Shown: one piece after another, positions 52,526 through 61,566 of the stretch
How the letters are laid out: every line of letters begins with the position of its first letter
Numbering within the stretch: position 1 is the stretch's first letter
Source of the DNA: Treponema berlinense
GTDB taxonomy: Bacteria > Spirochaetota > Spirochaetia > Treponematales > Treponemataceae
Assembly: GCF_900167025.1 (NCBI RefSeq)
Contig: NZ_FUXC01000003.1
Location: forward strand, 8,457 to 72,456
Direction: 5' to 3'
DNA: 64,000 nucleotides
Made by a program: the position numbers and the translations under genes
Notes under the pieces: generated by a model
Told to the model about the DNA's origin: nothing
Database searches by the model: none
What the model saw: only the letters and a program-made list of their open reading frames with translations

Positions 52526-52717
52526 TTGACAAGATTTTCTTAAAAGAATACTTTTTATACTGATTTTTATTCAATTTTTTTGTTCAAGGAGGAAACGTTT
52601 ATGCCTGACGGTAGTTCCGGTAACCCGGCTTCTGGTCAAAGTTTGAATGCAGTTCCTCCCCCGGTGAATTTCTAAATCATTCTTTGGCCATAAATTTCTC
52701 ATCTTATGGAGTTTTCT
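52526..52717 (+). promoter_or_regulatory. mgtE leader region with SD/anti-SD pairing
   Basis: TTGACA at 52526-52531 may be the -35 box (TACTTT at 17 bp). The leader holds AAGGAGGAAAC (52586-52596) before a short ORF, and GTTCCTCCCCC (52652-52662) near its end, which can pair with that Shine-Dalgarno over eight to nine bases. GGAG before mgtE (52708-52711) could compete for the same CCTCC. This looks like a translation-coupled control element. Confidence 0.5.
52601..52675 (+). CDS. 24-codon leader peptide upstream of mgtE
   Basis: A short ORF with the strongest Shine-Dalgarno of the neighbourhood (AGGAGG, eight bases from ATG). It encodes 24 residues: Gly/Ser/Asn-rich, with an Ala-Val-Pro-Pro-Pro-Val-Asn-Phe end. 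It stops 42 bases before the mgtE start at 52718. Proline-rich leader peptides govern mgtA and mgtC in enterobacteria by letting ribosomes stall or fall off when Mg2+ is low. A similar role is inferred from position, PPP and the overlapping anti-SD. No homology was checked. Confidence 0.55.
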   Translation: MPDGSSGNPASGQSLNAVPPPVNF

Positions 52718-54094
52718 ATGGCAGATTTTAACGCTACTTTTCAAAAGACGCTGGACATTTTGCTTGAAGAAAAAAAATATTCTTCGGCAAAAGATATTCT
52801 TTCTACTATGGCGCCGGAAGATGTCGCTTCGGTTCTTCAGGAACTTGATGAAAAACCGGCCGCCCTGCTGTTCCGCCTTCTTCCTAAAAAAATTGCGGCG
52901 GAAGCCTTTGTTGAGATGGAAAGCGATTTTCAGGAAAAACTGATTAAGGGTTTTTCTGACAAGGAGCTTACCGCTATTCTTGACGAAATGTATGTGAACG
53001 ATGCCGCTGACATTGTTGAAGAAATGCCTGCAAACGTTGTGAACAGGATTCTTTCAAACGTGAATGCGGAGACAAGAACGGCAATAAACCAGATTCTTCA
53101 GTATCCGGAAAATTCCGCCGGTTCGATTATGACTACGGAATATGTCTCGCTGCGGCTGGGAACAACTGTAGGCCAGGCAATCAATCAAATCCGCCGGAAG
53201 GGTTCGGACAAAAAGTCTTTTTACACTTGCTATGTAACTCAAAACCGCAAGCTTCTCGGACGGCTTTCTGTAAAGGATTTGCTTCTTGCAAAAGACGACG
53301 ACCTTCTGATTGACGATTTGATGAAGACAAACGTTATTTCTGTAGACACGCACACCGACCAAGAAGAGGTTGTCCAGATATTTTCAAAATACAACTTTAT
53401 GGCTTTGCCGGTTGTTGACAAAGAGCAGAATATGGTCGGAATCATTTCTTTTGACGACGCAATTGACGTGATGGAAGACGAAACCACCGAAGACATTGAG
53501 ATTATGGCAGGTATGACTCCTTCCGACAAAACTTATCTGCGCACTTCGGCATTCAGCCTTTTTAAGCACAGAGTCGGATGGCTTTTGTTTCTGATGGTTT
53601 CCGCGACTTTTACAGGAATGATTATTACGAATTTTGAAAGCGCTTTGTCGCAGCTGGTTGTTCTTACTGCTTTTATTCCTATGCTTATGGATACCGGCGG
53701 AAATTCCGGCTCGCAGTCGTCTGTAACGATTATCCGCTCCCTTTCGCTGGGGGAACTCGGATTTTCTGACATCGGCATAATTATATGGAAAGAAATAAGA
53801 ACGGCGGTTTTGTGCGGAATAGCCCTGTCCGCTGTTTGTTTTGCAAAAGTTATGCTTGTTGACCGCCTTTTGCTTGGAAATACGGATGTCTCGGCTATGG
53901 TTGCGCTTGTTGTATGCCTTACGATGACTGTTACCGTTCTTGTCGCGAAGGTTGTGGGTTGCACGCTTCCGCTTTTTGCAAAAAAACTAGGTTTTGATCC
54001 GGCGGTCATGGCAAGTCCGCTGATTACAACAATTGCGGACACGCTTTCTCTTCTGGTTTATTTTGGAATTGCAAAATTCTTTCTTCACCTTTAA
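52718..54094 (+). CDS. mgtE: Magnesium transporter MgtE
   Basis: A 458-residue MgtE-type Mg2+ channel. The N-terminal helical domain (about 1-130, EDVASVLQELDEKPAALLFRLLP), a CBS pair (about 135-260, AGSIMTTEYVSLRLGTTVGQAI and VISVDTHTDQEEVVQIF), and a five-helix membrane domain with FIPMLMDTGGNSGSQSS that lines the pore are all present. The cytoplasmic part gates the channel by binding Mg2+. ATG at 52718 is preferred, with GGAG seven bases upstream; the ATG at 52706 would include that site. Confidence 0.95.
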   Translation: MADFNATFQKTLDILLEEKKYSSAKDILSTMAPEDVASVLQELDEKPAALLFRLLPKKIAAEAFVEMESDFQEKLIKGFSDKELTAILDEMYVNDAADIVEEMPANVVNRILSNVNAETRTAINQILQYPENSAGSIMTTEYVSLRLGTTVGQAINQIRRKGSDKKSFYTCYVTQNRKLLGRLSVKDLLLAKDDDLLIDDLMKTNVISVDTHTDQEEVVQIFSKYNFMALPVVDKEQNMVGIISFDDAIDVMEDETTEDIEIMAGMTPSDKTYLRTSAFSLFKHRVGWLLFLMVSATFTGMIITNFESALSQLVVLTAFIPMLMDTGGNSGSQSSVTIIRSLSLGELGFSDIGIIIWKEIRTAVLCGIALSAVCFAKVMLVDRLLLGNTDVSAMVALVVCLTMTVTVLVAKVVGCTLPLFAKKLGFDPAVMASPLITTIADTLSLLVYFGIAKFFLHL

Positions 54095-61394: not shown

Positions 61395-61566
61395 ATGAAG
61401 GCGGGTGCGTTGTACCTAAGCCATCTCTCTGGAGAGTCCTTGTAATGTGGCAAGGCGCCGAAGGGTTAAGGTTATAAGAACCGATATCTCAGGCAAACGG
61501 ACGGAGCTTAAAAAAGTTCTACTCACTCTAGAGAGCCTGCCCGATGAGACAGGCTCTATTTTTTTT
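61395..61566 (+). promoter_or_regulatory. Glycine riboswitch (single aptamer) with terminator
   Basis: Conserved gcvT-type core: GGAGAG (61431-61436), GCGCCGAAGGG (61455-61465), TCTCAGGCAAA (61488-61498) and GGAC (61500-61503). A terminator follows: AGAGCCTG (61532-61539), loop, CAGGCTCT (61550-61557), ATTTTTTTT. The symporter gene starts 48 bases on. Only one aptamer is visible. By analogy with other terminators of this class, ligand binding likely controls read-through; the direction (on or off) is not fixed by eye. Confidence 0.85.

Follow-up and report, generated by a model that had tools for sequence, protein, structure and literature searches.

Candidate translational Mg2+ switches built on an MDxGSS-type leader peptide precede Mg2+ transporter genes in Treponema and Clostridia

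The mgtE gene of Treponema berlinense is preceded by a short leader ORF whose relatives, as comparison between loci shows, are strictly associated with Mg2+ transporters of unrelated families. The encoded peptides share an M-D-x-G-S-S type signature, often followed by Tyr-Pro/His or x-G-R-S. Judged from sequence, the leader is probably a translational attenuator that senses ribosome passage through its first codons, and hence likely Mg2+, and it would belong to the translation-aborting type known from mgtQ. The architecture is strongly supported, and so is the Mg2+ link, by gene association; the direction of the response and the sensing step we infer. Work in enterobacteria has established ribosomal Mg2+ sensing through leader peptides, and in Firmicutes mgtE is under Mg2+ control by the M-box (ykoK) riboswitch RF00380. 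The element described here differs from the M-box in being centred on a translated ORF and in lacking an RF00380 match.

Positions are those of the window, the whole 64,000-nucleotide stretch of DNA that was analysed. Five segments of the leader RNA are distinguished: the leader Shine-Dalgarno sequence (SD; 1), the 5' half of the ORF (2), an anti-SD late in the ORF (3), a strand after the stop codon (4), and the mgtE SD and start (5). The features are as follows.

52526-52554, plus strand: weak promoter-like TTGACA, 17 nt, TACTTT, read by eye and kept in the near-identical relative L156
52586-52592, plus strand: leader SD AAGGAGG, kept in nearly all leaders; with the next AA it forms segment 1 (GGAGGAA, 52588-52594)
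52601-52675, plus strand: leader ORF of 24 codons, MPDGSSGNPASGQSLNAVPPPVNF, ATG at 52601 and TAA at 52673-52675, with homologous leader ORFs in relatives
52601-52642, plus strand: conserved N-terminal half of the leader peptide, of the M[PG]DGSS... type, the candidate sensing part
52633-52641, plus strand: segment 2 (c), TGGTCAAAG, partner of 52682-52690 in the proposed ON state (duplex against shuffles, compensatory changes)
52653-52659, plus strand: segment 3 (a'), TTCCTCC, anti-SD within the Val-Pro-Pro-Pro codons and partner of 52588-52594
52682-52692, plus strand: segment 4 (c'), CTTTGGCCATA, with segment 2 or the mgtE ribosome-binding site (RBS) and start as alternative partners
52708-52722, plus strand: segment 5, mgtE SD (GGAG, 52708-52711) and start, proposed OFF-state partner of segment 4
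52718-54094, plus strand: mgtE, Mg2+ transporter of 458 aa (TIGR00400, PF01769, PF03448, PF00571)

The downstream gene is identified as mgtE by its score of 463.7 bits with NCBIfam TIGR00400 (cut-off 232.75) and by the Pfam domains MgtE_N, CBS and MgtE, and homologues use the start at 52718. The original prediction described a 24-codon ORF with a strong ribosome site whose own SD is complementary to its V-P-P-P codons. Both are present: the Val-Pro-Pro-Pro codons GTT CCT CCC CCG occupy 52652-52663 (Pro-Pro-Pro at 52655-52663), and TTCCTCC is the full complement of GGAGGAA. In the window sequence by itself helix 1:3 is marginal (p = 0.05; helix p-values here compare RNAduplex energies with dinucleotide shuffles). 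An Rfam scan returned no family for the leader in the window or for those of 19 related loci, and the earlier remark that no classic M-box is visible thus holds at the RF00380 gathering score. The promoter-like element was missed by a consensus scan, and a leader transcription start at about 52560-52570 is only a guess.

Conservation was assessed with mgtE orthologues from Treponema genomes and a species-level collection (80 loci, chiefly MAGs of rumen/gut Treponema and Clostridia), the relatives being mostly MAGs and certain of their taxon labels possibly bin errors. At the same place most orthologues of the window type have a strong SD and a leader ORF, 18-39 codons long, and the SD/anti-SD helix recurs with covariation before most of them in Treponema and ruminal Clostridia. 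Both the ORF and the pairing are therefore conserved in relatives, and the lack of conservation that was named as refuting the original prediction is not seen. L002 and L130, whose full-length mgtE genes come closest to that of the window (81-82% identical), have no leader, which we count against the switch model; it is also absent at L140, L145, L149 and other orthologues.

The N-terminus of the peptide is kept as MDxGSSxGxxxGRS in Clostridia and as M[PG]DGSSxGSYPG in Treponema. Asp2, Gly4, Gly8 and Arg13 occur without exception in a set of 38 distinct clostridial leaders free of indels (38/38); codons 2 and 4 differ among these leaders at their third positions, and only small polar residues stand at positions 5-7 (S/T/N/G, with C once). 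Counted from the start codon, the c motif (GGCCGAAG) lies a multiple of 3 nt downstream in all 54 leaders that have it at 21-36 nt, shorter regex matches in the start region being excluded, and the spacing between this motif and the anti-SD shows no frame restriction (27, 15 and 12 leaders across the three frames). These observations indicate that the first half of the ORF is constrained as peptide and the second half mainly as RNA. In relatives the anti-SD encodes unrelated residues (KLSP, LLS, GFL, RFL, GVS or SLL), and the Pro-Pro-Pro of the window copy is thus incidental; it is limited to the window leader and L156. The idea that the prolines are the sensor is not supported, since they are unconserved and lie where the frame is free, while the frame-kept part is the N-terminal half.

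Divergent Treponematales mgtE genes (~35-46% identical) have leaders of similar flavour, MNDSDGPGSSQPPEPH (L016), MDQSDSSGSSSTVPLP (L163), MGDSDSPGNSSNIPLPD (L169) and MPDGSPNTCMDYH (L159). At L016, L163, L165, L167, L168 and L169 the leaders have Asp/Ser/Gly and then IPLP, VPLP or PPEP. Within Treponema, mgtE of the window type is patchy (~32 of 200 genomes by match list) and is up to ~70% identical to clostridial MgtE, suggesting that gene plus leader may have moved by horizontal transfer.

Helices 1:3 and 2:4 have 31 pairs between them; across 36 clostridial leaders 88.5% of the pairs are standard, and 16 of the 31 have changed on both sides. Their covariation score is 0.247, against 0.187 +/- 0.007 in shuffled alignments (0 of 500 shuffles as high), and pairing drops to 35-51% with slid-partner controls. 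Taken alone, helix 1:3 is 94.8% paired, and double-sided changes affect 4 of its 7 pairs. A strand-swap control gave no information, since homologous strands also pair when exchanged between loci; covariation counts and dinucleotide shuffles took its place. Subgroups exchange entire helices: CUUCC/GUCGG occur with GGAGG/CCGAUG, GGUUUUUC with GAAAGACC or GAAAAACC, and GCCAUA with UAUGGC. In the window, helix 2:4 joins TGGTCAAAG (52633-52641) and CTTTGGCCA (52682-52690; p = 0.000 of 200 shuffles), and helix 4:5 joins GCCATA (52687-52692) and TATGGC (52717-52722), covering the mgtE start codon, with an extra pairing of CTC (52698-52700) and GAG (52709-52711) in the proposed OFF state. Helices 2:4 and 4:5 are mutually exclusive, and 1:3 crosses 2:4.

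Helix 4:5 is weaker in column counts, its helices being 80.5% and 70.1% paired, and a compensated form is seen in L032 and L033 (ACCATA:TATGGT, an A-U pair, vs the G-C pair of GCCATA:TATGGC in the window). Compared with dinucleotide shuffles, the RBS/3'-tail region folds more stably in the clostridial leaders (n = 54, Wilcoxon p = 4e-7) and in the window (-10.4 vs a shuffled mean of -6.0, p = 0.01), and the difference is non-significant for 18 Treponema leaders pooled (p = 0.13). The sequestor is thus weakly supported in many Treponema mgtE leaders, which again counts against the switch model. By comparison, the predicted pairing of the post-stop strand with the transporter RBS/start is best supported in Clostridia, the clade of the window and the corA leaders described below. 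These results suggest that the leader ORF and helix 1:3 are almost certainly real, and that the second helix and the alternative structures very probably are. The SD/anti-SD switch of the original prediction therefore stands as to ORF and helix, and the comparative alignment proposed with it finds covarying helices and a conserved N-terminal peptide; what it overlooked is that a further long-range helix exists and that the mgtE start is sequestered, the two features that jointly turn the leader into a switch.

The same peptide type was found before a second transporter gene. The clostridial covariance model R1 was too divergent for Treponema, giving mostly sub-threshold results and one weak match, L113 (MDGGSSSYPIFFLITNQCLQENFS), which lies before a CorA gene (PF01544, 165 bits). 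Leaders before corA are frequent in the genus, with the form MD[GS]GSSYPIRSLITN.SLL and the divergent forms MDGGSSSSAYHQRAY, MDSGSDSSGYHGVYV and MDDGSSSHCQQA. A corA-independent pattern, AGGAGG-N4-9-ATG-Asp-x-Gly-[WSN][WSN], was scanned in 196 Treponema genomes and gave 44 matches, vs 0 for the reversed pattern. By tblastn, corA is directly downstream of 28 of the 30 fetched matches, the remaining two (L252 and L255) lying at contig ends with the corA start motif present, and 12 of the 14 unfetched matches are located at a corA by coordinates. Thus the link to Mg2+ already proposed for the window gains from leader peptides of one type preceding unrelated Mg2+ transporters. The corA of the window genome (L206) has no leader of the MDxGSS type, a further count against the switch model. 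MDxGSS(Y)P leaders of Treponema with a complete attenuator before corA are L176-L204 and L226-L255.

Among the corA leaders the codons for Ser5 and Ser6 alternate between AGY and TCN, indicating selection on the peptide, and Asp2 is present in nearly all (Glu2 in L181 and L182). Their predicted arrangement is that of a classical attenuator in which the SD of the leader serves as segment 1. Of 51 such leaders 92% have a significant helix 1:2 (p < 0.05) between the SD and the late-ORF anti-SD (e.g. TCAGGAGGC : GCCTCCTGA); helix 2:3, between the anti-SD region and the post-stop strand, is significant in 84% of 45 (KS p = 4e-32); and helix 3:4, between the post-stop strand and the corA RBS, in 47% (KS p = 1e-15), the loci being related and the fractions therefore not independent trials. 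Examples are AGCCUcUUGGA : UCCAAaAGGCU in L254 and GAAUUUC : GAAAUUC vs GAAAUUCU : AGAAUUU in L189 and L200. For corA leaders a helix of the mgtE type, joining the ORF 5' half to the post-stop strand, was considered and rejected (0/45), the pairing of anti-SD and post-stop strand being adopted instead. The two classes are therefore not one RNA fold, and the peptide type appears to be common to them while the RNA wiring is different. As a finding, we rate the corA leaders roughly on a par with the mgtE leader.

In Clostridia the strict pattern is rare, with 8 matches in a sample of 391 clostridial-class genomes. Two of the eight are the two sides of a single mgtE leader at a contig break. A further match, L261 (G524; MDVGSSSSISPVGRSS), begins MDVGSSSSISPVGRSSHLF, with a leader start at ~1515 on the reverse strand, and lies before an MgtA-type Mg2+ P-type ATPase whose best matches are PRK15122 and TIGR01524 (550 bits over 438 residues), a score that misses the full-length cut-off since the gene is cut short by the contig end. 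A CUUCCUU stretch at this locus could pair with its own AAGGAGG. The other strict matches look like chance. Three other clostridial Mg2+ ATPase genes (L266, L267 and L268) have short acidic leaders (MDSERGKSEKYGPDS..., MDMADQKPDQGPGG... and MEDGLPSN...); they were excluded as members since only a loose similarity of acidic leaders is seen, and may represent a further, looser leader class.

Comparison across loci shows a conserved leader ORF with a strong SD, helix 1:3, an antisequestor and a sequestor exclusive with it, the antisequestor pairing the post-stop strand with the ORF 5' half in mgtE leaders and with the anti-SD in corA leaders. It is very likely that this leader regulates Mg2+ transport. 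Without a ribosome, or when the leader is fully translated, helix 1:3 and/or the sequestor would form and the transporter would be OFF. When a ribosome loads and then slows or drops off in the N-terminal codons, segment 1 would be unavailable to the anti-SD, allowing the antisequestor to form and leaving the transporter start free (ON). In the corA form, the RBS would be open only with segment 2 free and segment 1 unavailable, that is, with a ribosome loaded that has not reached the end; complete translation would cover segment 2 so that 3:4 closes the RBS, and without a ribosome 1:2 and 3:4 would remain. The mgtE form would follow the same logic with 2:4 as antisequestor. Since the RBS would open only on a loaded, unfinished ribosome, the signal is expected to be failure or delay in the first codons, where the conserved peptide lies. 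By analogy with mgtQ, low Mg2+ would cause early failure through the acidic/Gly/Ser(/Tyr-Pro) nascent N-terminus, by intrinsic ribosome destabilization or a related early pause, and we lean towards early failure as what opens the transporter RBS at low Mg2+. The conserved N-terminus has just one or two acidic residues (D3 in the window), fewer than classical sequences of intrinsic ribosome destabilization, and an early pause of another kind is thus possible.

N-terminal acidic residues are reported to cause intrinsic ribosome destabilization that high Mg2+ suppresses (PMC9718836). In mgtQ, the leader ORF of Salmonella mgtB, a destabilising effect on the ribosome is proposed for Asp2 and Glu5, and on early abortion stem 2:3 is proposed to form and free the mgtB RBS (Choi et al. 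2021, PMC8092293). Leaders of the window type likewise are short ORFs with an SD and an early acidic residue immediately before a Mg2+ transporter gene, and exclusive stems (1:2 and 3:4, with the transporter RBS in 3:4, vs 2:3 in mgtQ) are also found in the corA and mgtE leaders, although mgtE leaders differ from the mgtQ-type layout in the antisequestor strand. Whereas mgtQ has 8 codons, is enterobacterial, lies intergenically within an operon and lacks MDxGSS, the leaders here have 18-39 codons; new relative to mgtQ are the use of the leader's own SD as segment 1 and MgtE and CorA as targets. The peptides are too short for a sequence comparison with MgtQ to be informative, and we treat the likeness as convergent. 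The closest analogue is enterobacterial mgtQ rather than the MgtL and MgtP leaders cited in the original prediction.

Translation of mgtL and corL is inversely related to transporter expression (PMC11552253), and efficient leader translation at high Mg2+ represses the transporter for enterobacterial MgtL/mgtA and CorL/corA (PMC11552253, citing Chadani et al. 2017). These systems resemble the present one in having a leader ORF before a Mg2+ transporter gene, with corA and mgtA also as targets, but they act by Rho-dependent termination and their Pro/acidic-rich peptides are unrelated in sequence to the leaders here. Conserved proline codons, an MgtL-like trait, were not found among the homologous leaders. 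Candidate cis-regulatory RNAs are also reported before mgtE in Thioalkalivibrio (mgtE motif, PMC11109978) and before corA in Gammaproteobacteria (corA motif, PMC6429828); both are from other taxa, and the accessible portions of these reports describe no such leader peptide. A search of the open-access literature found no MDxGSS-type leader before Mg2+ transporters, and a ribosome-based Mg2+ sensor of this type is apparently undescribed so far.

The same leader and helices could instead serve a stable, erm-like N-terminal arrest in place of abortion, possibly in response to another translational-stress signal. The geometry needs merely a ribosome held before the anti-SD, and the conserved ...SYPG / SSYPI / GSIPLP stretch resembles a pause site; however, three Mg2+ transporter families make another signal unlikely, and in mgtE leaders segment 2 would be partly masked by a ribosome held early. 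We regard this alternative as unlikely. It is still less probable that the helices form the aptamer of a metal or metabolite riboswitch, possibly with an SD pseudoknot, and that the ORF is incidental. Such a reading would suit the two crossing conserved helices and the conserved unpaired UAGUA of the clostridial form, and the RNA is an mgtE leader, but it does not sit well with the conserved frame, the free third positions and the AGY/TCN swaps, nor with one peptide type in differently folded mgtE and corA RNAs and the lack of an Rfam match.

A proline-stall attenuator, in which slowing at Pro-Pro-Pro under limiting Mg2+ or EF-P covers the anti-SD and alters access to mgtE, is very improbable: the window leader does have the three prolines and enterobacterial MgtL uses prolines (PMC11552253), but nearly all homologous leaders lack them, late codons track the anti-SD in any frame, and in corA leaders a ribosome stopped at the end would mask segment 2 and favour a closed RBS. 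Transcription attenuation, with the long post-leader hairpin as terminator, can be nearly dismissed, for although U-runs follow the stem in L032, L033, L094, L101 and L104, a scan found no terminator-like site in the window leader, the U-run is absent in most copies, and the strand pairs with the transporter RBS instead; in the few leaders with a U-run after a long stem, termination may contribute to the translational attenuator that we favour.

The chances seem evenly balanced that MDxGSS represents an undescribed class of nascent-peptide Mg2+ sensor serving MgtE, CorA and MgtA in Spirochaetota and Clostridia, the MgtA association being one strict locus (L261), with at least two different RNA switches. 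On that reading, and with the same even weight, the constant part would be the interaction of peptide and ribosome, around which the RNA evolves freely. In two further phyla a single peptide signature is found ahead of MgtE, CorA and MgtA genes, together with covarying switches. This pattern suggests that Mg2+ sensing by early ribosome failure is widespread and that it arose or spread independently of the enterobacterial leaders. It also suggests a compact, testable sequence code for Mg2+-sensing leaders, and the short peptide allows a direct test of how a nascent N-terminus renders ribosomes Mg2+-sensitive.

A decayed copy of the locus was also found. In L156 (G168:C1:636400-638400) mgtE is near-identical to that of the window but is shortened to 196 aa by loss of the membrane domain and an internal portion. 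Its leader SD is mutated to AGGAAG and helix 1:3 is weakened, which fits relaxed constraint on the leader after gene death. Elsewhere in the window, a glycine riboswitch aptamer (RF00504, 51.6 bits, above the gathering score) is located at 61419-61514 on the plus strand.
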